Below, in pieces: positions 35,498 to 61,902 of a DNA stretch of 64,000 bases. Below the pieces are notes generated by a model. That model ran no database searches. It saw only the letters and a list, made by a program, of their open reading frames with translations, and was not told the DNA's origin. The position numbers and the translations under genes are program-made. Each line of letters opens with the position of its first letter. Within the stretch, counting starts at the first letter, position 1. The stretch is taken from positions 1 to 64,000 of the forward strand of contig JAKPGJ010000009.1 of NCBI GenBank assembly GCA_029550965.1, written 5' to 3'. Source of the stretch: Bacillota bacterium (GTDB taxonomy: Bacteria; Bacillota; Clostridia; Oscillospirales; CAG-382).

Positions 35498-37237
35498 ATG
35501 AAAAGAATTTTAGCGGTTGTCCTTTTTTGTTTTATGGCGCTCGGCGTTTTTGCTCTGCCGATCTCGGCCAGTCCGGTCAATGCCGGCGTGACGGTTAAAA
35601 TGCCCACGACCGAACCGGTTTTGGACGGCGTCGTCAGCGAGGGCGAGTACGGCGAGAAAATTCACACCGTCGATTACAGCAGCGACGAATTTATTGCCGA
35701 GTTCGACACAGACAAAGATATCCGGGCGGATTTCTACATGACCTGGAAAGAGGACAGCCTTTACATGGCGTGGGTTGTTTTCGCAGAGAAACACACGCCC
35801 ATCGACGCTTCGATTGACTACAATCGCGACGGAAAAGCGGACGCCGAAATCGGCGGTACGGATTTAGCGTACATGTATTTAGGCTCCTGCGTGCAGTTTA
35901 TGCTTTGCACCGGCGCGCCCGACATCCATCAGAAAAAATACCAGACAAACACATGGTCGGGGAATTACCTCGAAGCCGGTCTTGTCTATCTCAACGACGG
36001 CAAAAGCCAAAAATTCATGTGGAGCGTCCCGCAAAGCGCCGTTGACTTTACGGCGCAGACGTTTGACTTCTGCGGAAGCCGGGATGAGGAGAATAAAACT
36101 ACCACCTACGAAACCAGAATCCCGCTTGCGGCGCTCGGCATGCAGAACATCGGCGCCGGAACCCGGCTCGGGCTGATCTATGCCGTCGGCGATCAGGAGA
36201 ATTTTGAAACCGCGCCGAATATGTGCGAATGGCAGAACGGCATTTTAAACGGCAAGAATATGGACGCTGGCGCGGTCATAACCCTCTCGGACGCCACCAC
36301 CGACGGGCTGATTGTAGGCGCGCCGGTTCAGAACCCCGACTACAACATCACAGTGTCCGCGCCGGCTTCCTATATGCCGGGCGATACCCTTCAGGTCAAA
36401 ATGACGCTGAACGACATTCAAACGGCGGGCGGCTATCCTTACATAAAGCTTTCGCTTTATTACGATAAAGACAAGGTCGAACCGGTCGTCAAGAACGACG
36501 GAGACGTAAACGAAGCGATGTCGTCCTTCCTTGAAAAAGCGCCCAACAAGAACAGCTGGGAAGGCATATGCAGGCTGGACGAGAACGACGCCCGGTATGA
36601 CATCTCGTTTATGAATCCGTCCTTCAACGGCGCGGCGGTCGACCACGGCGACCTTGTTATTTCGGTGCCCTTCAACGTCAAAAGCGGCGCAACCGGAAAG
36701 ATTATCTTCCAGGTTCCGCATAAAAGCACCCTGTGCGTCGATACGAATCTGAAAAAGCATTACGGCAACGCCGGAATGGCGGCGGTCGAGCCTGCCGTCG
36801 AAGACGAGGATTTGACGCTCAAACCGGGCAGCAGGCTCACGATTGAAAGCGATAACGGTCGGCGCTATCTGAAGGGCATGCGGGATGAGACCACCGTAAA
36901 CGAAATCAAGGCGGAATTCAGCGGCAGCGTTACCATCCTTGACAGGGACGGCAACCCGCTTTCCGGCAGCGACTATGTCGGAACCGGCTGTACCGTTACC
37001 GCCGGAACGAACACCGTTACCGTCTTCCTGCTGGGCGACGCGAACGGCGACGGCGTCGTCGATTCGCTCGACTACCTGATCGCGAAAAGAATCATTATAG
37101 GCACAGCTGCGTATGATGATTTGACGGTTAAAGCAGTATGCGTAACCGGCGGGGATACGCCCGATTCGTTAGATTATTTAAGAATTAAAAAATACTGCAT
37201 AAGTACATACGATTTATACGGTGAAGGCGTTGCATAA
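35498..37237 (+). CDS. Secreted protein with CBM9/DOMON-like, cohesin-like and dockerin regions
   Basis: A 579-residue protein. A signal peptide (about 1-24) is followed by a beta-sandwich region at about 28-265 (TEPVLDGVVSEGEYG, DLAYMYLGS, YETRIPLAALG) like family 9 carbohydrate-binding/DOMON domains. Residues about 285-430 resemble a cohesin fold (SAPASYMPGDTLQVKMTLNDI, FNVKSGATGKIIF). The C-terminal dockerin-like part has a first calcium loop, GDANGDGVVDSLDYLI, and a second, incomplete repeat, GGDTPDSLDYLRIKKYCI. The product is likely at the cell surface and binds glycan and protein partners, as in cellulosome-like assemblies. No catalytic domain is seen. The lipoprotein gene starts immediately after the stop. 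Confidence 0.75.
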   Translation: MKRILAVVLFCFMALGVFALPISASPVNAGVTVKMPTTEPVLDGVVSEGEYGEKIHTVDYSSDEFIAEFDTDKDIRADFYMTWKEDSLYMAWVVFAEKHTPIDASIDYNRDGKADAEIGGTDLAYMYLGSCVQFMLCTGAPDIHQKKYQTNTWSGNYLEAGLVYLNDGKSQKFMWSVPQSAVDFTAQTFDFCGSRDEENKTTTYETRIPLAALGMQNIGAGTRLGLIYAVGDQENFETAPNMCEWQNGILNGKNMDAGAVITLSDATTDGLIVGAPVQNPDYNITVSAPASYMPGDTLQVKMTLNDIQTAGGYPYIKLSLYYDKDKVEPVVKNDGDVNEAMSSFLEKAPNKNSWEGICRLDENDARYDISFMNPSFNGAAVDHGDLVISVPFNVKSGATGKIIFQVPHKSTLCVDTNLKKHYGNAGMAAVEPAVEDEDLTLKPGSRLTIESDNGRRYLKGMRDETTVNEIKAEFSGSVTILDRDGNPLSGSDYVGTGCTVTAGTNTVTVFLLGDANGDGVVDSLDYLIAKRIIIGTAAYDDLTVKAVCVTGGDTPDSLDYLRIKKYCISTYDLYGEGVA

Positions 37238-37624
37238 ATGGCAAGAAAAACTTATCTAATCAGACTTCTCATTTTCATATCGCTGTTTTCCCTGTGCTGG
37301 TCGGTATCTTCCTGCGAAGAAAAACCAGAAAAAGTCTATCTGGACGGAATGTACGCGAACGGCAATCTGAATGTCGGCTATGTCTTTTTTCCCGACGGAA
37401 CCGGTTATCAGATTATCTCTCAGGAACACTTTTTAATGGAATACGAAATTTCAGAAGGCGTCATTACCATCACCACCCTTTTAAAAGACGCGAAAATCAC
37501 CAAAGCCTTTCCGTTTGAAAAAAGCGGCGACGACATCGTAATCGACGGCGTCGTTTACAAGTATATTCCCGACGACGCGTCCGACGGTTCAGCGCGCGTT
37601 CCTTCCGGCGTTTCAGCATGGTAA
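37238..37624 (+). CDS. Small lipoprotein
   Basis: A 128-residue protein. A basic start and hydrophobic stretch (LIRLLIFISLFSLCWSV) end in a lipobox-like SVSSC, so it is probably lipidated on that Cys. The rest is a small beta-rich domain (GMYANGNLNVGYVFFPDGTGYQ...) resembling short DUF5640-like lipoproteins. It begins on the base after the dockerin-protein stop, which implies co-translation and a shared surface role. Function unknown. Confidence 0.65.
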   Translation: MARKTYLIRLLIFISLFSLCWSVSSCEEKPEKVYLDGMYANGNLNVGYVFFPDGTGYQIISQEHFLMEYEISEGVITITTLLKDAKITKAFPFEKSGDDIVIDGVVYKYIPDDASDGSARVPSGVSAW

Positions 37625-37651: not shown

Positions 37652-37680
37652 TTGACAAAACCGAATTCGCAATATATAAT
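37652..37680 (+). promoter_or_regulatory. Consensus sigma-A promoter of the T-box operon
   Basis: TTGACA (37652-37657) and TATAAT (37675-37680) with a 17-base spacer match consensus exactly. Transcription should begin near 37687, giving a leader of about 280 bases. Confidence 0.88.
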
Positions 37681-37696
37681 AATGAAAAATTTAATA

Positions 37697-37945
37697 AATG
37701 CGTTGACGAGGACACGAGCAATTCAGAGTCTGGTGCGCAGAGAACTGCCGGCCGGTGCGAGGCAGTAGCCGTCTGCATTTGCTTATCACCTCCGAGCAGC
37801 AATACCGAAAGTATATATATGCTATGAGTAAGTATTGACGGAAAGCTCCGCCGTAAAAATGGAGCAGCGTTGTTGGACGCGGCAAATGAGTGGTTAATGA
37901 AGGCACATTGAATGGCTTCATCTCGTTGCAGATGAAGCCTTTTTT
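37697..37945 (+). ncRNA. T-box leader RNA
   Basis: The leader has the T-box landmarks in order. GAGGA lies near 37709. The AGAGA bulge is at 37739-37743, opening an apical hairpin ACTGCC/GGCAGT whose loop carries GGTGCGA (37754-37760). The 3' side of stem I is TCACCTCCGAGC (37786-37797). A stem III follows with GAGTAAG, GACGG and CCGCCGTAA (37825-37855), then a T-box-like segment AATGAGTGGTTAATGA (37885-37900) with TGGT to pair with tRNA ACCA. ATC at 37785-37787, followed by A, is the best specifier (Ile), though stem I pairing could not be fully resolved. ATGAAG (37897-37902) can pair with CTTCAT of the terminator arm, giving the antiterminator. Uncharged tRNA would thus turn on the downstream synthetase. 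Confidence 0.8.
37914..37945 (+). terminator. T-box-controlled terminator
   Basis: GGCTTCATCT-CGTTGC-AGATGAAGCC is followed by T6. Its left arm can instead pair with the T-box segment. Confidence 0.9.
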
Positions 37946-37967
37946 ATATCACTTGAGGAGGTATTGA

Positions 37968-40256
37968 ATGGAAAACCAGAATCAGACCAAATTAATCGCC
38001 GAAAGACTCAGGGGAGCAAGACTGAACGCTGAGATTTCAACCGCGGAAATGGCGCGCATCTGCGGAATTGACGAGGAAAAATATCTGACGCTTGAAAAGG
38101 GAGAAGAAGATTTTTCATTTACTTTCCTGTACAACTGCGCGAACGCGCTCGGCATGGATATTTCCGAGCTGGTTTCGGGCGACAACCCCAAACTGAACTT
38201 TTTCAACATCACGCGCGCCGGCGAGGGCATGCCGATTAAGCGCAGAGAGGGCTTCCAGTACAGACACATCGCCCCGCTTTTGAAAAACAGGCTGTCGGAA
38301 CCCTTTATCGTTACCGCAAAATACGACGAGGAAGCGCAGAACAAACCCATCCCGCTTTCCGTACATAAGGGGCAGGAGTTTGATCTGGTGCTCAAAGGTT
38401 CGCTCAAGGTTCAGCTGGACGGCCATATCGTCACGCTGAACGAAGGCGACTCGATTTACTATGACGCCTCGCACAGCCACGGCATGATCGCGGTCGGCGG
38501 AAGCGACTGCGTGTTCCTTGCCGTCGTCTTTAAAGCCGAGGACGGCAGCGCGACGGATATCGAGCCGGTTCCCGTTATCCGCGCGGAAGTTCAAAAAGGC
38601 GCTTCGGAATCCAGATACGATCATCTGATTTATAAAAAGTTTGTCACCGAGACCGTCGCGGAGGACGGCACGCTGCAGTCGTTCGAGATTCATCCGACGC
38701 CGGATTTCAACTTCTCGTACGATGTTTTGGACGCGCTGGCCGAAAAATGCCCGGACAAACGCGCGCTTTTGTGGGTTTCCGCCGACAAGCAGACCGAGCG
38801 CAGCTTTACCTTTGCCGAAATGCGCAGCCTTACCAACAAAACCGCGAACTACCTGCGCTCGCTGGGCATCGAAAAAGGCGACCGGGTCATGCTGGTCTTA
38901 AAACGGCATTACGAGTTCTGGATGGCGATTCTTGCGCTGCACAAGCTCGGCGCCGTCGCGGTTCCCGCAACCCATCTGCTGATGGAGAAGGATTATGTCT
39001 ACCGCTTCAACGCCGGCAAGATCAAAGCCGTGATTGCCACCGCCGAGGACTGGTGCACTGCGGAGATTGACAAAGCCGCTCCGCAGTGCCCGACGCTGAC
39101 CGTCAAATCCATTGTCAAGGGAACCAAAGAAGGCTGGTCCAGCTTCGACAGCGGCGTCGCCGCGGCAAGCGAAGAATTCGAGCGCGTGCCCACCAGCAAG
39201 GACGATCCCTCGATTATGTTCTTCACTTCGGGTACCACCGGTTATCCCAAGATCGCGACCCATAACTTCGCCTACCCGCTCGGTCATATCATCACCGCGC
39301 GCTGGTGGCATCACGTCAACCCCGACGGCCTGCACCTGACGGTCGCCGACACGGGCTGGGGCAAAGCGCTCTGGGGAAAACTGTACGGACAATGGCTGTG
39401 CGAATGCGCCGTTTTCGTCTATGACCTGGAGAAATTCTCGGCGGAAGACCTGCTTCCGATGTTCGCGAAGTACAAAATCACCTCTTTCTGCGCTCCGCCG
39501 ACCATTTACAGATTCCTCATCAAAGAAGACCTTTCCAAGTACGACCTCTCGTCAATCGAGTACGCGACCACCGCCGGAGAGGCGCTCAACCCCGAAGTAT
39601 TCAACCGCTTCTATGAAGCGACCGGTCTGGTCATTTACGAAGGCTACGGTCAGACCGAGACCACGCTGACCATCGGCAACCTTTACGGCAAAAAGCCGAA
39701 GATCGGTTCGATGGGTCTTCCCAGCCCCGCGTATGAAGTGGATATTCTGCGCGAGGACGGCACCAAAGCCGATATCGGCGAGGTCGGCGAGATTGTCATC
39801 AAGACCGACAAGGAAGTGCCCGGCCTGTTCATGGGCTACTATCTGAACGAAGAGAAAACAAAAGAAGTATGGCACGACGGTTATTACCACACCGGCGACA
39901 CCGCATGGCGCGACGAGGACGGCTACTTCTGGTACGTCGGCAGAACCGACGACGTCATCAAATCGAGCGGCTACCGCATCGGTCCGTTTGAAATCGAAAG
40001 CGTCATCATGGAGCTGCCCTATGTGCTCGAGTGCGCCATCACAGGCGTTCCGGACGAAATCAGAGGTCAGATTATCAAAGCGACCATCGTGCTTACCAAA
40101 GGCACCGAGCCGACGGAAGCACTCAAGAAAGAGATTCAGGAGTATGTAAAGCACCGCACCGCGCCGTATAAGTACCCAAGAATCGTCGAGTTCGTCGAGA
40201 GCCTGCCCAAGACCATCAGCGGCAAGATTAGAAGAGTAGAATTAAAAAATAGATAA
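37968..40256 (+). CDS. XRE HTH-cupin-AMP-forming acyl-CoA synthetase fusion
   Basis: A 762-residue protein with three parts. Residues about 8-65 are an XRE-type helix-turn-helix (AERLRGARLNAEISTAEMAR). Residues about 110-185 are a cupin (HKGQEFDLVLKGSL, GDSIYYDASHSHG). The remainder is an acyl-adenylate/CoA ligase: P-loop FFTSGTTGYPKIA near 420, YGQTETT near 565, YHTGDTAW near 643, the hinge KSSGYRIGPFEIES near 668, and the catalytic Lys in PKTISGKIRR near 755. The ligase activates a carboxylic acid to its CoA thioester via the AMP ester; the closest style is medium- or branched-chain acyl-CoA synthetase. The HTH-cupin half is normally a separate regulator. AGGAGG lies 6 bases ahead of the ATG. 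A T-box leader controls it. Confidence 0.88.
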   Translation: MENQNQTKLIAERLRGARLNAEISTAEMARICGIDEEKYLTLEKGEEDFSFTFLYNCANALGMDISELVSGDNPKLNFFNITRAGEGMPIKRREGFQYRHIAPLLKNRLSEPFIVTAKYDEEAQNKPIPLSVHKGQEFDLVLKGSLKVQLDGHIVTLNEGDSIYYDASHSHGMIAVGGSDCVFLAVVFKAEDGSATDIEPVPVIRAEVQKGASESRYDHLIYKKFVTETVAEDGTLQSFEIHPTPDFNFSYDVLDALAEKCPDKRALLWVSADKQTERSFTFAEMRSLTNKTANYLRSLGIEKGDRVMLVLKRHYEFWMAILALHKLGAVAVPATHLLMEKDYVYRFNAGKIKAVIATAEDWCTAEIDKAAPQCPTLTVKSIVKGTKEGWSSFDSGVAAASEEFERVPTSKDDPSIMFFTSGTTGYPKIATHNFAYPLGHIITARWWHHVNPDGLHLTVADTGWGKALWGKLYGQWLCECAVFVYDLEKFSAEDLLPMFAKYKITSFCAPPTIYRFLIKEDLSKYDLSSIEYATTAGEALNPEVFNRFYEATGLVIYEGYGQTETTLTIGNLYGKKPKIGSMGLPSPAYEVDILREDGTKADIGEVGEIVIKTDKEVPGLFMGYYLNEEKTKEVWHDGYYHTGDTAWRDEDGYFWYVGRTDDVIKSSGYRIGPFEIESVIMELPYVLECAITGVPDEIRGQIIKATIVLTKGTEPTEALKKEIQEYVKHRTAPYKYPRIVEFVESLPKTISGKIRRVELKNR

Positions 40257-40583: not shown

Positions 40584-42270
40584 TTATCAATAAATGTCGA
40601 CATTTTATTGCAATGTTGCATGGTATATGGTAAAATAAAAAGTAAGATAAAAGTGGAATTAGATTGGGGTGTTCAAGATGGATAATGTTGAAAATATCTT
40701 GAGTTTATACAAATACATTAGACAGCTTTGTGCATTGAGGTATACGATTGTCACCGATTAATGAGCAATATTGGACATGCTTTCTAAAAGACATTCCAAA
40801 CGATTCAGATAATATTACCGTTTACTATCGAGACCGTGTTGAAGAAGAGTCAAGTGATAATAAAGTATTGCTGGAGGTAAAGAAACCCGAATTTCAAAAA
40901 TGCCCGGAACCGCCGGCTATAATTTCGGATTGGCTCGAACCCGGTTGGGAAAAATTTACAAACACTCCTACTTTGAAAAACTCTCTGACGGTTTTAATGA
41001 AGCATCAGGTGATGACAAGCTTTTACAGCAAGAAATAGAACATTTTGAAGATTCAACAGAACGAATTCAGGCTTATGAAAGATGGATAATATCCAGAGAC
41101 AAATGGGCGAAAAAGCAACGGGTCATAAGTGAAACACGCGGCTTTTTTAACCGCCTTTATCACGCATATATAGATCTCGAACGTGAATCCGAAACTCTTG
41201 AGTTTATGGTGGGAAATGGTCTTATTAGCGATATAGAAAATCAAGCGGTTAATCATCCCGTCCTTTTAAAAAGAGTTAAGTTTGATTTCGATTCAAAAAC
41301 AATATTATTAGAATTTGCGACACGGATACAGATCCGGAGCTTTATACTCTATTACTTCAGGAAATGGCAGAAATTAACCATGGTGTTGTTCAACAACTGA
41401 AGGATGAGCTTCGCGAAAACTTTTATCATCCGTTGGATCGATTTGATACGCCTGATTTTTTAGAATCGCTGACTCACTGGCTCTGTTCTGAAAGCAAGTT
41501 TATTATGATTGAAAATGACGAGCCGGGGCGTGATGACAAAATAGTAACTAGATGGGCTCCTGTCTATTTTATAAGAAAAAGAATTGGGGGTATGCTTTCT
41601 GCAATTGATGAGATAATAAAAACTATTGAAAAAACGGGTTATATGCCTAAACCTATAACCGAAATATTTGGCTCTGATAAAGTTGAAATACAGCTTAATG
41701 ATAGTGAGTCATCGATTGACGAGCAATTAGCCGCTCTCAACGGCGAAAATGTAGACATCCTGCTTGCAAAGGAAGCCAATCGGGAGCAACTTGAAATTGC
41801 ACAGCGAATTGAGCATTATAATGCTGTATTGGTCCAAGGACCTCCGGGTACCGGAAAGACATATACTATTGCCAATCTTTTAGGTCATTTTCTTGCTCAA
41901 GGCAAAAGTGTGTTGGTAACGAGCTATACAAAAAAGGCATTGTCAGTCCTCAAAAGTCAGGTGCCTGAGGAAATACAAAATCTATGTGTCTCGGTGCTGG
42001 ATGATACAAATGAGGATATGGTTCGTTCGATTGACGGTATTTCTGAGAACATATCAAGATATACATCGGGTGAACTTAAAAGAAAAATAGAAACAACCGC
42101 CATAGAGCGTAATGAGATTATAAAACAGCTGTTGACGGATACAAAGGCGGCGGCTATAGACAAAAGTGGGAAATGTTGATTTCAGCGATAGAAGATATGA
42201 AAAATTCAAAATTGCGCATACAAAAAAACTATGGTATAATAAGTAAAACCTCATTATGTGTTTGTTCTTA

Positions 42271-42769
42271 GAACTTAATCGGATCGATAATATTATAGAA
42301 AGGGAGTGGGTGATAATGTTCCAATGCTTGCGTGTGAAATCCGATGAAGAAAAAGAACGCTAACCGGGTTATTGAAAACCCAGAGTGTGTAGAAAAAGGA
42401 CAAATACTGGGATAAAATGCACAGCATGTTGTATGAGGTTTAGAAACAGCTTTCGCTTTTAATTGCGACGGCAACAATGGAGCGATTGAGTTTGAGTAAG
42501 CATTCAACAGTGAAAAATGGGATTTAAATTTTTTACGAATAATAAGTTTCTTAAAAATGCAACTTCGATGATCGTTGAGAAACTAAACAGCGTGTTGGCT
42601 GATAAGTAGTCATTCAATTCATTCGCATAATCAAGTAGTTCAATAGAATATTCATTGTATCGGAAGATATTATGGAGCAAAATACTTACCGTGCAAAGAA
42701 TACCTCAGCACATAAATATAGTAAAGCGGTGGGAAGCGCGCCGTTCTGAGTATCAAAGGAGGTTTTACG
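42271..42769. other. Non-coding stretch inside the helicase pseudogene
   Basis: No recognisable helicase sequence and no credible gene. It is AT-rich with many stops in all frames. It precedes the embedded lipoprotein gene and may hold its promoter. Confidence 0.5.
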
Positions 42770-43099
42770 TTGAAAAAAGCAATCAGTTTGGCAGTATTGT
42801 TCTTGATGAGTATCACATTATGTTCTTGCGAGGTACATTTCGGCAGTACAACCTACGATGTGTCATGGTGGGTGATAGCTGTTCCAGTTATTGTTTTTTC
42901 TGCTGTGGTTTTCTATATTGCCGGGAAAACAATCTCAAAGAAAAAATATACCTGCCCGTCATGCGGGCATACATTTCAGCCTAAATGGTGGAAAGCTATG
43001 TTATCCATACATATAAACAGTGACCGGGTCTTTAAGTGTCCGTCTTGTGGAAAAATAGATTTTTGCCACTTATCCTATGATTCTGAAAATGAGGGATAA
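42770..43099 (+). CDS. Small lipoprotein/membrane protein with zinc ribbon, embedded in the pseudogene
   Basis: A 109-residue protein starting with TTG, 7 bases after AAAGGAGG. The signal-like start KKAISLAVLFLMSITLCSC ends in a lipobox (LCSC). A membrane segment (WWVIAVPVIVFSAVVFYIAG, about 33-52) follows, then a cytoplasmic-style zinc ribbon: CPSCGHTFQPKWW and CPSCGKIDFC. Lipidation plus a later membrane segment and a zinc ribbon is unusual; the first segment may instead be a plain membrane anchor. The frame is intact while the gene around it is ruined, which suggests later arrival or selection. Confidence 0.65.
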   Translation: MKKAISLAVLFLMSITLCSCEVHFGSTTYDVSWWVIAVPVIVFSAVVFYIAGKTISKKKYTCPSCGHTFQPKWWKAMLSIHINSDRVFKCPSCGKIDFCHLSYDSENEG

Positions 43100-45023
43100 C
43101 AGAATCAAAACGAGTCGTGTCGTAACATTGAAAGCATAAGAAACTGTTGATACTTGACGGTGTGTGCTTGCCACAGTTGCAGAACCGGCATTACAGTCTT
43201 GGTAAAACAGATAAATATGATTATGCCTACAACTTGATACGAAGAACTGAGAATAATTATGAGATGAGACAGGCACTAATGAATTGGAAACTTACGGTAA
43301 AGAGGATAGGCAAAGGTACGGGGAAAACAGCCCCGGTGCTCAGAAGACGGGCCCGCGAATTGATGGCTAAGTGCCAGATGGCCGTACCTGCATGGATTAT
43401 GCCTATAAGCAAAGCTCTCGAGAGTTATGACCCTTCTCAAAACTGTTTTGACGTTGTAATAGTTGACGAAGCAAGCCAAGCCGATATAACCGCTCTGGCA
43501 GTTTTATAATTTGCAAAGAAAGTTATAATTGTTGGTGACAATCAGCAAGTGAGTCCAATGACTGTCGGCATTGACGTTGACCGAATAAATGCACTACGCG
43601 ACATGTATATAAAAGATTCTTTTGATACATGGCATCTTTATGACGCTAAAACATCTCTATACGACATTACTGCGTTAACATATCCACCCCTCATGTTGCT
43701 CGAGCATTTCCGCTGCGTACCCGAAATTATTGGCTACAGCAATAAGTTGTCATATAAATTTAGAATTAAACCGTTGCGCGATGCAAGCAATTGTGTTATA
43801 GGTCCTCCGGTTGTCAGTTATAGGGTTTATAACGGAAAGCGTGAAGGCCACAGAAAAATCAATACTCAAGAAGCGGAAACAATTGTCGCATTAATGCTCG
43901 CCTGCATTGAGCAGCCTAAGTACGCAAACAAGACTTTTGGCGTAATATCTTTGCTCGGTGACGTCCAAGCCAAATTGATTCAGCAATTAATATTAAGAAT
44001 TATCGAACCCGACGTGATTGAAGAAAGACGGATTCTTTGCGGTAATGCGTCTCATTTTCAAGGCGACGAAAGAGATGTTGTGTTCCTATCAATGGTAGAC
44101 AGCAACGAAGGAGACAGCCCGTTTAGATTCACCGGGGAGGGTATGGATCAATCCACTAAGCAAAGGTATAATGTCGCAGTTAGCAGAGCAAGAGACCAGC
44201 TTTGGGTTGTCCACTCTCTTGACTATTCAAAAGACCTAAAGCCCGGCGACATACGGCGCGATCTGCTTGAGTATTGCGAAAATCCGAAGGCAGTATTGCG
44301 TTCGAACAAAATTATTGATGCGAATGCTGAATCTCCATTTGAAGAGGCAGTGGGGAAATCGCTCGTTGCTGCGGGTTATCATGTTACTCCACAGTGGGAA
44401 GTCGGCGCCTATCGTATTGATATAGTGGTTCAATATAACGGGAAAAAGATTGCAATTGAGTGTGATGAAGAGAAATACCATAGTGGCGAAGAAAAAATAC
44501 GTGAAGATATGGTACGACAGACTATTCTTGAAAGATTGGGTTGGCGATTTATTCGCATACGTGGGAGCGAGTACTATCGAAATCCGGAAGATACTATGGC
44601 TCGTGTAATAAAAGAACTAAACGACAACGGTATTTTTCCTGAAAAAAGTTACGAACAGGCACCGATTATAAGTTCCGAACTGCTTTTACGAGTAAAGAAT
44701 CGTGCTATGCAAATTCTTGACGAGTGGCATGATAATTATGAAAAAATACCGAACAATAGCGAAGGCAAAATACTAAACATGTCTCTAACTTCAAATCTGG
44801 TTAATAAAAACTCAAGTAGTAAAATGCAACTACATATGTAACCGAACAGACTATAATCTTTGGGCAACAGAACAATAATAATTTCAGTGAATCAATCAGA
44901 TTTGGAGCAACTCAAAGAGCTAATAAGGTAGAAAAATTTAAATACAGCAAATAAAAAGAGTTAAAGAATTGCTCGATGCCGAAATAATTATTTTGATAGC
45001 AGCGAAAAAAGTTAAAAAGATAA

Positions 45024-57427: not shown

Positions 57428-58648
57428 ATGATTAAAAAACCAGAGATTTTATCCCCTGCGGGCAATCTTGAGAAGTTAATATACGCCGTCAATTACGGAG
57501 CGGACGCGGTTTACTGCGCGCTCGACCGCTTCGGGATGCGCTCGGCGGCGGACAATTTTACGCCGGATGAGCTGAAAGAGGGCATCGCGTACGCGCACGC
57601 GCACAACGCGAAGCTGTATCTGACGCTCAACACCATGCCGAAGGACGCAGAGCTTGCAGTCCTGCCCGAATACCTTCGCATCGCAGAGGAACTGAAGCCC
57701 GACGCCTATATTGTTTCCGACCCGGGCGTGCTGGAATATCTAAAAGAGTATATCCCGGACGCGGTCATACACCTCTCGACGCAGGCGAACACCTTAAACG
57801 CCGCCGCCTGCCGGTTCTGGCATAAAAACGGCGTTCAGCGCATTGTGCTGGCGCGCGAGCTTTCGCTTTCCGATATCAAGCATATCCGCGCAAACACGCC
57901 GCCCGAGCTGGAGCTGGAGTGTTTTGTGCACGGCGCGATGTGCGTTTCCTACTCGGGCAGATGTCTGCTGTCGAATTATTATGTAAACCGGAACGCGAAC
58001 AACGGCGCCTGCGCCCAGCCCTGCAGGTGGAAGTATTACCTGTACGAGGAAAAACGAACCGCCGACGTCATAGAAGCGGAGCAGTATCCCGAAGGAACCT
58101 ACGTTTTCTCCTCAAAGGATCTCTGCATGATCGAGCATATTCCCGAATTGATCGACGCCGGCATCGACAGTTTCAAGATTGAAGGCAGGGTCAAGAGCGC
58201 TTATTATACGGCGGTAATCACCAACGCGTACAAAATGGCGCTGGAGGATTACCTGAAAGACCCGGAAGGCTATGTTTTTAACCCGAAATACTTAGACGAA
58301 GTGGAAAGCGTCAGCCACCGGGAGTATTCCACCGGGTATTTTTTCTCGACGCCGAGCGAGAACGCGAACATCGTAAAAAGCAACGAATATATCAAAGACA
58401 AAGCCTTTCTCTGCACGGTCAGCGAATTCGACAGCAAGAAGAAGCTGGCGAAATGCGTCCAGCGCAACAAGCTCTCGGTGGGCGACAACGCGAACATTCT
58501 CTCCCCCGGCACGACCGGCAGAGATATCGTCATCGGCAGAATGTACGATTTGGAGATGAATCCGATATCGTCCGCGCCGCATGCGAAAATGGAGTTTTAC
58601 CTGGAGATTGACGAAGCGAAACCCGGAGATATTATCAGAGGAAAGTAA
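57428..58648 (+). CDS. U32-family peptidase / tRNA hydroxylation-type protein
   Basis: A 406-residue protein from the ATG at 57428; an ATG at 57416 within the end of mltG is possible. It has the U32 features: ILSPAGNLEKLIYAVNYGADAVY at the start, the Cys of ELECFVHGAMCVSYSGRCLLSNYY, ACAQPCRWKY, and the signature FKIEGRVKSAYYTAVITNAYK. U32 members include collagenase-like peptidases and the TrhP/RlhA enzymes that hydroxylate RNA; the Cys-rich set here fits the RNA-modifying group. It lies downstream of mltG, an arrangement common in Firmicutes. Confidence 0.88.
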   Translation: MIKKPEILSPAGNLEKLIYAVNYGADAVYCALDRFGMRSAADNFTPDELKEGIAYAHAHNAKLYLTLNTMPKDAELAVLPEYLRIAEELKPDAYIVSDPGVLEYLKEYIPDAVIHLSTQANTLNAAACRFWHKNGVQRIVLARELSLSDIKHIRANTPPELELECFVHGAMCVSYSGRCLLSNYYVNRNANNGACAQPCRWKYYLYEEKRTADVIEAEQYPEGTYVFSSKDLCMIEHIPELIDAGIDSFKIEGRVKSAYYTAVITNAYKMALEDYLKDPEGYVFNPKYLDEVESVSHREYSTGYFFSTPSENANIVKSNEYIKDKAFLCTVSEFDSKKKLAKCVQRNKLSVGDNANILSPGTTGRDIVIGRMYDLEMNPISSAPHAKMEFYLEIDEAKPGDIIRGK

Positions 58649-58652
58649 AAAC

Positions 58653-59303
58653 ATGGAGCAATTCCTGCAGAACAGAATCATCATCATCGCCGGACACTAC
58701 GGTTCGGGAAAAACGAATATTGCGGTCAACCTCGCCGTTGCGCTCGCGAAGGCGGGCAAAAAGGTGTGCGTTACCGACCTCGATATCGTCAATCCGTACT
58801 TCCGCAGCGCGGACAACGCGCCGGAACTGAACGCGCTCGGCGTTCGGACCATCGTTCCGGAGTTCGCAAACTCCAACGTGGACCTTCCCACGCTGCCAAA
58901 AGAATATTACTCGATATTCTCGACAGACGAGTACAGCATTGTGGATGTCGGCGGCGACGCGGACGGAGCGACCGTGCTCGCCGTGGATTGCGACAAGTAC
59001 GAGCAATGCGGGTACTCGATGTATTATGTGTATAACTGCTACCGTCCGATGACCAAAGACCCGAACGACGCCTATCTTTTGCTAAAACACATCGAAGCAA
59101 AATCCCGCCTTTCATTTTGCGGCATCATCAACAACTCCAATATAGGCGCCGAGACAACGGCAAAGGCCGTCCGGGCTTCCCTGCCGTTTGCCGAACAGGT
59201 CTCTCGGCTGAGCGGACTGCCCATCGTGGCGACGACCGCGCTGAAAAGCCTTGCGGTCGAGGGCGCTTTTCCGATCGAGAACAAGACGAAGCAACTGTTC
59301 TGA
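58653..59303 (+). CDS. P-loop ATPase of the MinD/ParA/CobQ fold
   Basis: A 216-residue protein. Walker A is IIAGHYGSGKTNIAVNLAVAL (about 11-31), a plain GxxxxGKT form rather than the deviant ParA Lys. Other switch regions are DLDIVNPYFRS and IVDVGGDADG. It closely resembles uncharacterised P-loop proteins that precede 2-oxoacid:ferredoxin oxidoreductase operons in clostridia, and here the vorD gene starts 32 bases later. A role in cofactor insertion or maturation of the enzyme is inferred from position only. Confidence 0.8.
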   Translation: MEQFLQNRIIIIAGHYGSGKTNIAVNLAVALAKAGKKVCVTDLDIVNPYFRSADNAPELNALGVRTIVPEFANSNVDLPTLPKEYYSIFSTDEYSIVDVGGDADGATVLAVDCDKYEQCGYSMYYVYNCYRPMTKDPNDAYLLLKHIEAKSRLSFCGIINNSNIGAETTAKAVRASLPFAEQVSRLSGLPIVATTALKSLAVEGAFPIENKTKQLF

Positions 59304-59335: not shown

Positions 59336-59551
59336 ATGAACAAGGTAACATTCAAAGTGGATTTGTGCAAGGGCTGCGGCTTCTGCGTCGCTGCCTGCCC
59401 CCGCAAAATCATTCTGCTGGACGAAAAGCAGATCAACGCAAAGGGCTATCATCCCGCTTACGTTATTGACCCCGCAAAATGCACCGGATGCGCGATGTGC
59501 GCGATCATGTGCCCCGATGTCGTAATCACAGTAGAAAAGGACGGTAAATAA
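59336..59551 (+). CDS. vorD: 2-oxoacid:ferredoxin oxidoreductase, delta (ferredoxin) subunit
   Basis: A 71-residue ferredoxin with two 4Fe-4S motifs, CKGCGFCVAACP and CTGCAMCAIMCP. It passes electrons between the TPP-bearing catalytic subunits and external ferredoxin. AAAAGGGAA precedes the ATG. The order delta-alpha-beta-gamma, with one base to vorB, is that of vor/kor clusters of amino-acid-fermenting clostridia. Substrate choice (branched-chain, 2-oxoglutarate, or indolepyruvate) is not settled by this subunit. Confidence 0.92.
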   Translation: MNKVTFKVDLCKGCGFCVAACPRKIILLDEKQINAKGYHPAYVIDPAKCTGCAMCAIMCPDVVITVEKDGK

Positions 59552-59552
59552 G

Positions 59553-60620
59553 ATGGCTGAAAAATTACTGATGAAGGGCAACGAAGCAATCGCGGAAGCA
59601 GCGATCCGCTCGGGCTGCAGGTTCTTCTTCGGTTATCCGATCACCCCGCAGACGGAAATTTCAGAATACATGGCGAAAAACATGCCGAAAGTAAACGGCC
59701 TGTGCCTTCAGGCGGAGAGCGAAGTCGCGGCGATCAACATGGTGCTGGGCGCGTCCGCCGCGGGAGCGAGGGTTTTAACCTCTTCTTCCAGCCCGGGCGT
59801 CAGCCTGAAAAGCGAGGGAATTTCTTATTTGGTCGGTTCCGACCTCCCCTGCGTCATCGTCAACGTGCAGAGAGGCGGACCCGGTTTGGGCGGAATCCAG
59901 CCGGCGCAGAGCGACTATAATCAGGCGACCAAAGGTCTCGGTCACGGCGACCAGCATATCATCGTCTTAGCGCCCGCGTCCGTACAGGAAATGGCGACGC
60001 TGACCGGCGAAGCGTTTGACCTGGCCGACATTTACCGCACGCCGGTAATGCTGCTCGCGGACGGCGCGCTCGGACAAATGATGGAGCCGGTCGATTTCGA
60101 GGAAAAACCGCACAGAGAAATTCCGCCGAAGGACTGGGCATGCACCGGACACGGCGGAAAGCGGAAGCCCAACATTATCAACTCCCTGTACATAGAACCG
60201 AACGATCTGGAGCGCACGGTGGTTGAACGCTACAAGAGATATGCGCTCATTGAAGAAAAGGAAGTCAAATACGAAGAGTTCCTGACGGACGACGCGGAAA
60301 TCGTGGTCGTCGCTTACGGCATCACCGCGCGCATCGTAAAAACCGCGGTCAAAGCCGCTCGCGCGAAGGGAATCAAGGCGGGTCTGTTCAGACCGATAAC
60401 GCTGTATCCGTTCCCGAGCAAACAGCTGGACGCCATCGCCGACAGGGAGCATGTAAAGGCGTTCTTATCGGTAGAAATGAACATGGGTCAGATGGTCAAC
60501 GACATTAAAGTGGCAATCAACTGCAAAAAACATGTGTCTCACTTCGGCAGAACGGGCGGCGTAATTCCCACCCCCGACGAGATACTGGAGAATATTGAAA
60601 AGGTTGGAGGTGCAAACTAA
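59553..60620 (+). CDS. vorB: 2-oxoacid:ferredoxin oxidoreductase, alpha subunit
   Basis: A 355-residue subunit. It starts LLMKGNEAIAEAAIRSGCRFFFGYPITPQTEISEYM, characteristic of VorB/KorA. SSSPGVSLKSEGISYLVGSDLP and VNVQRGGPGLGG follow, then the C-terminal domain with GLFRPITLYPFP. It binds part of the TPP site and forms the catalytic core with vorA. The length is short for fused enzymes, so this is a four-subunit type. It overlaps vorA by one base (TAATG). Confidence 0.93.
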   Translation: MAEKLLMKGNEAIAEAAIRSGCRFFFGYPITPQTEISEYMAKNMPKVNGLCLQAESEVAAINMVLGASAAGARVLTSSSSPGVSLKSEGISYLVGSDLPCVIVNVQRGGPGLGGIQPAQSDYNQATKGLGHGDQHIIVLAPASVQEMATLTGEAFDLADIYRTPVMLLADGALGQMMEPVDFEEKPHREIPPKDWACTGHGGKRKPNIINSLYIEPNDLERTVVERYKRYALIEEKEVKYEEFLTDDAEIVVVAYGITARIVKTAVKAARAKGIKAGLFRPITLYPFPSKQLDAIADREHVKAFLSVEMNMGQMVNDIKVAINCKKHVSHFGRTGGVIPTPDEILENIEKVGGAN

Positions 60621-61372
60621 TGGTAGTATTCCAAAAACCGCACGCGCTGACAGACACGCCGTTCCACTACTGCCCGGGCTGCACGCACGGCATTGTGCAC
60701 CGGCTTGTAGCGGAGGCGATCGACGATCTCGGCGTCGAGGGGGATACAATCGGCATCGCGCCCGTCGGATGCTCGGTATTTGCATATAATTATTTCAACT
60801 GCGATATGATAGAAGCGCCCCACGGCAGAGCGCCCGCCGTCGCGACGGGCGTCAAGCGCGTCCACCCGTCCAAAATCGTGTTTACCTATCAGGGCGACGG
60901 CGACCTGGCCGCGATCGGCACGGCGGAGACCGTTCACGTCGGCGCGCGGGGCGAGAACATCACCATCATCTTCATCAACAACGCGATTTACGGCATGACC
61001 GGCGGTCAGATGGCGCCGACCACGCTGCTCGATCAGGTCACCACGACCTCCCCGTACGGCCGAAAGAAGGAAATACAGGGCATGCCGGTCAAAGTCTGCG
61101 AAATGCTCGCCACGCTGGACGGCGTCGCGTACGCGGAAAGAGTTTCGGTTGACAGCGTCAAGAACGTGCTCGCGGCAAAGAAAGCGGTTAAGAAGGCTTT
61201 TGAGATACAGCAGAAAGGCCTGGGGCTTTCCATCGTAGAGGTGCTTTCCACCTGCCCGACCAACTGGGGACTCTCGCCGCTGAAGGCGGTCGAGTGGCTG
61301 CGCGAGAACATGATGCCCTATTATCCGCTCGGCGTTTACAAGGACGTCACGAAGGAAGGTGAACAGAAATGA
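60620..61372 (+). CDS. vorA: 2-oxoacid:ferredoxin oxidoreductase, beta (TPP) subunit
   Basis: A 250-residue TPP-binding subunit. FHYCPGCTHGIVHRLVAEA has the cluster Cys pair, followed by GIAPVGCSVFAYNYF. The TPP motif runs from YQGDGDLAAIGTAE to NNAIYGMTGGQMAPTT. It oxidatively decarboxylates 2-oxoacids to acyl-CoA, or the reverse when ferredoxin is reduced. GGAGG precedes the ATG, which lies within the end of vorB. Confidence 0.94.
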   Translation: MVVFQKPHALTDTPFHYCPGCTHGIVHRLVAEAIDDLGVEGDTIGIAPVGCSVFAYNYFNCDMIEAPHGRAPAVATGVKRVHPSKIVFTYQGDGDLAAIGTAETVHVGARGENITIIFINNAIYGMTGGQMAPTTLLDQVTTTSPYGRKKEIQGMPVKVCEMLATLDGVAYAERVSVDSVKNVLAAKKAVKKAFEIQQKGLGLSIVEVLSTCPTNWGLSPLKAVEWLRENMMPYYPLGVYKDVTKEGEQK

Positions 61373-61902
61373 GCGCGATTCTGATTGCCGGATTCGGCGG
61401 CCAGGGCGTTTTGTTTGCCGGAAAGCAGCTTGCGCTTGCCGGAATGAAAATGGATAAGCAGGTCAGCTTTATCCCTTCCTACGGTCCAGAAATGCGCGGC
61501 GGAACCTCCAACTGCTCGGTCAACATCGACGACGAGCCGATCGGCTCGCCGGTCGTTACCCGGCCGGAAATCCTTTTGGTCTTAAACCTGCCCTCGTTCG
61601 AGAAGTTCGAAAGCAAGGTGGTTCCCGGCGGAACCATGATCGTCAACAGCTCGCTGGTTCATGTAAAATCACAGCGCGCAGACATTCACGCGTACTACAT
61701 ACCCGCGACCGAACTTGCCGACCAGAACGGACTGAGCGGGCTCGCGAACGTCATTATGCTCGGCAAGATGTTAAAAGCGACCGGCATTTTTGAGTTTGAC
61801 TACTTCCGCGCGTGTCTGCTGGCTTCGGCGCCCAAGTCCAGGCCGCAGCTCGGAGAAATGAACGCAAAGGCATTAGAGATTGGATATAACTATGAAGGAT
61901 AA
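61369..61902 (+). CDS. vorC: 2-oxoacid:ferredoxin oxidoreductase, gamma subunit
   Basis: A 177-residue subunit of the POR gamma family: ILIAGFGGQGVLFAGKQLALAGM at the start, then FIPSYGPEMRGGTSNCSVNIDDEPIGSPVV. It forms part of the CoA-binding region. It starts with ATG overlapping the vorA TGA, so the four subunits are translated in step. It completes the vorDBAC set; ispD starts 11 bases before its end. Confidence 0.94.
   Translation: MSAILIAGFGGQGVLFAGKQLALAGMKMDKQVSFIPSYGPEMRGGTSNCSVNIDDEPIGSPVVTRPEILLVLNLPSFEKFESKVVPGGTMIVNSSLVHVKSQRADIHAYYIPATELADQNGLSGLANVIMLGKMLKATGIFEFDYFRACLLASAPKSRPQLGEMNAKALEIGYNYEG

Follow-up and report, generated by a model that had tools for sequence, protein, structure and literature searches.

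T-box leaders usually control amino-acid genes, and the question raised by the present locus is why one of them should stand directly in front of a gene for an acyl-CoA synthetase. The locus lies in a 64,000-nucleotide stretch of a Bacillota bacterium genome (contig JAKPGJ010000009.1), referred to here as the window. A first-pass annotation had described a consensus promoter, a T-box leader with a divergent core and a terminator, followed by a single gene, and had taken the choice of target for a departure from T-box biology and the leader for a possible variant class.

Judged by its sequence, the region upstream of the synthetase gene is a T-box leader RNA of the Ile-specific, transcription-attenuation type, with predicted tRNA-dependent switching (Table 1). 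Both the promoter and the leader of the first-pass annotation were recovered, and the search with the Rfam T-box model (RF00230) that it had recommended gave a full-length alignment with an E value of 3.5e-12 in a 401-nt search and of 4.1e-12 when the whole 2.07-Mb genome was searched. The score of 57.8 bits is under the curated Rfam gathering cut-off of 93 bits, a curation threshold and not a structural feature, and for this reason a default gathering-mode scan missed the leader. Two other T-boxes of this genome, one ahead of trpB (90.2 bits) and one ahead of the gene for a TrpX-like ABC transporter (67.8 bits), also score below this value. Five T-boxes were found in the genome, and the present leader is the only one of the five that reads Ile. 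Chance similarity was considered and dropped, given the E value of 4e-12 and the conservation of the leader in 86 orthologs. Stem I is conserved, its GAGG/CCUC helix showing covariation.

Table 1. Features of the leader, the synthetase gene and the VOR genes in the window, and related Phe-specifier leaders in other genomes.
Feature	Position	Strand	Evidence
Sigma-70 type promoter TTGACA-17-TATAAT	37652..37680	+	12/12 consensus match
T-box leader RNA, Ile-specific	37693..37945	+	RF00230 57.8 bits at 37694-37928; covariation in 7 relatives
Stem I AGAGA (AG) bulge	37739..37743	+	Sequence; invariant in alignment A2
Stem I distal loop GGUGCGA	37754..37760	+	Sequence; invariant in alignment A2
Specifier AUC (Ile), then A and CCUC (3' strand, stem I helix)	37785..37787	+	Rfam alignment register
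Stem II (CAATAC/GTATTG)	37800..37837	+	Double changes in 5/6 pairs; 100% of cells paired
Stem IIA/B pseudoknot (ACGG/CCGU; GCUCC/GGAGC)	37838..37865	+	Double changes in 3/5 pseudoknot pairs
Stem III (GCGU/ACGC)	37867..37880	+	100% of cells paired
Antiterminator AAUGAG [UGGUUA] AUGAAG ... CUUCAU CUCGUU	37885..37927	+	Pairing search and covariation
Intrinsic terminator GGCTTCATC..GATGAAGCC + T6	37914..37945	+	Stem 37914-37939; overlaps antiterminator 3' strand
XRE(HTH)-cupin-AMP-forming acyl-CoA synthetase, 762 aa	37968..40256	+	Pfam AMP-binding, AMP-binding_C, Cupin_2
VorD-like 2x[4Fe-4S] ferredoxin subunit	59336..59551	+	ORF immediately before vorB, with two CxxCxxC..C motifs
VorB, 2-oxoisovalerate:ferredoxin oxidoreductase subunit	59553..60620	+	PRK07119 543.7 bits vs cut-off 399
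VorA, TPP-binding subunit	60620..61372	+	NCBIfam PorB/KorB family; 70% identical to VorA of the synthetase-VOR operon of G057
VorC, gamma subunit	61369..61902	+	NCBIfam 2-oxoacid:ferredoxin oxidoreductase gamma
Phe-specifier (UUC) T-boxes before paaK	G046:C3:61969-62219, G047:C51:39845-40089, G021:C41:12461-12711		

The anatomy of the leader corresponds to that of Ile-specific transcriptional T-boxes of the RF00230 class, with which it shares a stem I carrying the specifier loop, AG bulge and distal loop, the AUC specifier, stem II, a IIA/B pseudoknot, stem III, a UGGN bulge and competing antiterminator and terminator. All the landmarks previously read from the letters (AGAGA, GGUGCGA, CACCTCCGAGC, UGGU and the terminator) are present. 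The segment CCGCCGTAA, formerly assigned to stem III, had to be reassigned, being the 3' part of the IIA/B pseudoknot, in which an ACGG/CCGU helix (37838-37854) presents a loop GCUCC (37845-37849) that pairs with GGAGC (37861-37865). Within the specifier loop, AUC-A-CCUC-CGAGC, the codon is read as AUC because the same register yields AAC for the T-box upstream of asnB and UGG for those upstream of trpB and the trpX-like gene, in agreement with the earlier suggestion of Ile as the likely amino acid. No tRNA-Ile(GAU) was found in the assembly, either by two pattern searches or among 27 tRNA loci.

Terminator and antiterminator are mutually exclusive through a common strand (37914-37927), the 5' arm of the terminator pairing alternatively with the T-box region as the 3' strand of the antiterminator. 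This alternative pairing was already proposed in the first-pass annotation; none of 300 shuffles gave an antiterminator as good as AAUGAG[UGGUUA]AUGAAG/CUUCAUCUCGUU. The bulge carries UGGU (37891-37894), invariant in 7/7 related leaders, and the divergent core noted before lies in the triplet that follows, where the ACC of the class (UGGUACC) is replaced by UAA (UGGUUAA), here and in the clade described below. ACC after UGGN is a frequent sequence feature of T-boxes, although naming a T-box does not require it. The other difference from the class is the target gene.

Folding of the single leader by minimum free energy did not return the T-box fold (z -0.7, not significant), and covariation was used because the single-sequence approach was uninformative. 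Across seven aligned leaders from the ACC-less clade, the proposed structure with the antiterminator had 89.9% of cells paired and 18 pairs with double changes, a result reached by none of 500 shuffles; sliding the partner strands collapsed the signal, and the version with the terminator gave the same covariation picture. The signal was weakest in the terminator stem and in the A2 helix of the antiterminator, where about 60% of cells paired, because the positions of both shift by 1-2 bases from leader to leader. Examined leader by leader, the antiterminator is well kept in L006, L008 and L009-L012 (0-10 of 300 shuffles as good) and does not stand out in L014 and L015 (38/300 and 46/300).

Replacement of ACC, by UAA, UAU, ACA, AUA or UUA, was observed in eight leaders, which fall in one clade of the protein tree together with two members devoid of a T-box (L007 and L013). 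The other T-box-bearing orthologs keep ACC in front of the same gene. The earlier notion of a variant class thus holds for the core of this eight-leader clade and not for most orthologs, which have the canonical UGGUACC.

The only gene between the leader terminator and the next locus is, as first described, an acyl-CoA synthetase fusion, encoding an HTH-cupin-AMP-binding protein in which the XRE-type helix-turn-helix matches Pfam below the cut-off. Its best PDB relative is 3ETC (residues 223-761, E 1e-198), which we take to be the AMP-binding protein MacsMa of Methanosarcina acetivorans with a preference for 2-methylbutyrate; 3ETC is archaeal and lacks the XRE-cupin part. Among 102 NCBIfam families the nearest is MbcS (NF047394), at 467.1 bits, and since the equivalog cut-off of 850 is missed, the substrate is not certain. 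MbcS of Staphylococcus aureus is selective for 2-methylbutyrate and isobutyrate and poorly active on isovalerate (PMC10026030). Both enzymes are AMP-forming synthetases, and the acids preferred by MbcS match the Ile and Val specifiers found here; in contrast, the present enzyme is fused to XRE and cupin domains and has VOR (2-oxoisovalerate:ferredoxin oxidoreductase) and the branched-chain aminotransferase IlvE, rather than lipid genes, as genomic partners. From the T-box specificity and these partners, 2-methylbutyrate and isobutyrate are probably the substrates. Conservation of the synthetase domain is strong and extends to its SGTTG and GRxDDVIKSSGYR motifs, so catalysis is predicted to have been kept.

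Stand-alone XRE-cupin proteins, about 40% identical, adjoin VOR and a separate acyl-CoA synthetase in seven loci (G027:C36, G034:C3, G007:C46, G019:C3, G004:C71, G059:C13 and G047:C29), which suggests that the fusion joined a putative pathway regulator to its enzyme. Upstream in the window lie a gene for a secreted protein with cohesin and type I dockerin domains (35498-37237) and a lipoprotein-like small ORF (37238-37624); a link to the cohesin-dockerin gene was considered and dropped, as no sign of it was seen in leader or synthetase. Downstream (40900-44841), a helicase-like gene, possibly a pseudogene, appears split into several ORFs, 41364-42179, 43147-43509 and 43549-44841.

Orthologs were drawn from related genomes and named GTDB genomes and counted where at least 330 nt of upstream sequence was available (n=104, a few being the same locus reached twice). 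A T-box lies directly upstream in 86 of them, which upholds the leader-synthetase pairing proposed at the outset. Specifiers, read by fixed spacing except in L017 and L078, which were read by hand, were AUC (Ile) in 79 and GUA (Val) in seven, and on the protein tree the seven Val leaders group in a single clade with full support. Ile leaders are found, among named members, in Ruminococcus flavefaciens SAb67, Angelakisella massiliensis and Neglectibacter timonensis. The T-box is absent from 18/104 orthologs, including L007 of the same genus. Three Lentisphaerota copies of the XRE-cupin-synthetase (L106, L130 and L145), also without T-box, are placed close together within the Bacillota tree and could possibly have been acquired by horizontal transfer.

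Partners of the synthetase were sought in its neighborhoods. The window encodes a VOR (59336-61902), recognized by a VorB above its cut-off with VorA, VorC and a ferredoxin adjacent; it lies 19 kb from the synthetase gene and outside its operon. An adjoining MinD-like ATPase gene (58581-59303) has homologs beside VOR in nearly all clusters that join synthetase and VOR. Such clusters, often with IlvE, occur in ten loci (L043, L046, L101, L128, L129, L134, L138, L144, L146 and L149). The cluster of G057 (L043) consists of a Leu T-box, LeuA-like and TIM-barrel-synthetase, followed by an Ile T-box with two copies of the XRE-cupin-synthetase and then by IlvE, ATPase, VorB, VorA and VorC; that of G050 (L046) has synthetase, ATPase, VorBAC and IlvE ahead of a Leu T-box, LeuA-like and TIM-barrel-synthetase. 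Besides these two, eight loci join synthetase and VOR, several with an IlvE match, and L149 holds the whole set behind a Val leader (synthetase, ATPase, VorBAC, IlvE).

Occurrence of VOR among 60 related genomes follows the loss of ilvC: it is present in 28/30 genomes without ilvC versus 8/30 with it (p=1.4e-7; 6e-5 at one genome per genus), genome-level p-values overstating independence because the genomes are related. Both exceptions, which lack VOR as well as ilvC, come from assemblies that are incomplete (53% and 84%). The synthetase shows a similar distribution (25/30 versus 8/30, p 2e-5), and the two occur together in 31 genomes, are both missing from 22 and occur singly in seven. VOR in the absence of ilvC was also seen in R. 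flavefaciens, Angelakisella, Neglectibacter and three MAGs. The genome of the window retains ilvC and ilvD, so salvage would not be its sole route to Ile but an alternative induced by starvation.

Taken together, these data make it likely that leader and synthetase serve the salvage of branched acids to isoleucine, as an alternative to the usual biosynthetic route, with the substrate, the direction of VOR, the binding of tRNA and the switching as predicted elements. According to this model, the leader would read tRNA-Ile through its AUC specifier and, as uncharged tRNA-Ile accumulates, the ACCA end of the tRNA would base-pair to the UGGU bulge of the antiterminator, which would keep the terminator from forming and allow the synthetase to be made. 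The enzyme would then activate 2-methylbutyrate, and probably isobutyrate, released by an amino-acid-fermenting community; VOR would reductively carboxylate 2-methylbutyryl-CoA to 3-methyl-2-oxopentanoate, and IlvE would convert the latter to isoleucine. In the sister clade the same arrangement would read Val. Ile and Val specifiers fit this model because they name the amino acids to which the two acids preferred by MbcS should give rise, and the VOR/IlvE clusters and the association of VOR with ilvC loss fit the sequence acid, acyl-CoA, 2-oxoacid, amino acid. Anaerobes are known to turn branched and aryl acids into amino acids by reductive carboxylation through the same sequence of steps (Allison; Robinson and Allison; cited in PMC7356843); 2-methylbutyrate and isobutyrate are precursors of Ile and Val, respectively, in rumen anaerobes (PMC7356843), and methanogens use branched acids in the same way (PMC10658910). 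Hence the supposed departure from T-box biology is not maintained, the synthetase most likely being an amino-acid biosynthesis enzyme that feeds VOR and IlvE.

Other roles were weighed against this model. As with the S. aureus MbcS, nearest of the NCBIfam families, the synthetase might provide the branched acyl-CoA from which branched-chain fatty acids are primed (PMC10026030), and its induction on Ile starvation would then make sense, as these primers usually derive from Ile; this is unlikely, since a lipid role predicts neither the operon linkage to VOR and IlvE, nor the tie to ilvC loss, nor a parallel Phe T-box on paaK. A catabolic system, in which synthetase and VOR ferment branched amino acids to acids for energy and the T-box is incidental, is highly improbable: VOR enzymes are reversible and do occur in amino-acid catabolism, but a T-box that turns genes on at amino-acid starvation has the wrong logic for such a role, and genomes without ilvC retain the system.

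It is very unlikely that the protein acts chiefly as an XRE-cupin regulator sensing acyl-CoA or acid, with the T-box setting its dose; the N-terminal HTH and cupin and the stand-alone homologs beside VOR and separate synthetases point that way, yet the conserved motifs of the synthetase domain do not. Also quite unlikely is decay of the leader into a constitutive attenuator, despite the UAA in place of ACC, the score under the gathering cut-off and the two clade members that lack a T-box, as the ACC-less clade has kept UGGU, specifier, helices and antiterminator pairing with compensatory changes, which would not survive decay.

The salvage model may extend to other amino acids. Nine genomes carry Leu specifiers (CUC, once CUG) ahead of a TIM-barrel-synthetase, in most cases together with a LeuA-like gene, and in three genomes phenylacetate-CoA ligase (paaK) is preceded by Phe specifiers (UUC). 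In the Leu operons L041, L043, L044, L046, L050 and L051, the LeuA-like gene precedes the TIM-barrel-synthetase; its product has a LeuA_dimer domain and a weak HMGL-like part. One further T-box-like leader with the Leu specifier CUC (L005, G000:C33:16254-16500, minus strand) lies upstream of a TIM-barrel-acyl-CoA synthetase fusion; no UGGN was found before its terminator and it is possibly decayed. In its homolog L057 (G001) a full leader was not seen. From these cases, the T-box seems to be the common way in these bacteria of matching an acid-activating ligase to the amino acid served. The evidence leans, if only slightly, towards a joint reading in which Oscillospirales of gut and rumen share a regulon where amino-acid-specific T-boxes, for Ile/Val (XRE-cupin-synthetase), Leu (TIM-barrel-synthetase) and Phe (phenylacetate-CoA ligase), would each switch on the CoA ligase of the corresponding acid, feed reductive carboxylation and form the genetic basis of ruminococcal isoacid nutrition, and in which one clade would use a functional T-box whose bulge lacks the conserved ACC.

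In itself the T-box is of a known kind and the biochemistry of the pathway is old; what is new is the logic of the target and the ACC-less core. Within the open-licence literature, where absence is weak evidence, no paper was found that assigns synthetase or VOR genes or a T-box to the reductive carboxylation route, that combines T-box, acyl-CoA synthetase and isoleucine, or that joins a T-box with phenylacetate, and the main text of TBDB never mentions acyl-CoA. The ACC-less antiterminator offers a natural test of the role of the conserved T-box ACC.

That isobutyrate, 2-methylbutyrate and isovalerate serve anaerobes of rumen and gut as precursors of amino acids has been known for a long time, and isoacids are marketed for addition to feed. 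The arrangement conserved across many gut and rumen bacteria points to genes behind this use of branched short-chain acids. Specifier codons act as built-in labels of the amino acid served by each CoA ligase, making genes and substrates directly testable. The findings also suggest that many gut genomes without ilvC, which would be scored as auxotrophs for branched-chain amino acids, may be able to make them from branched acids.
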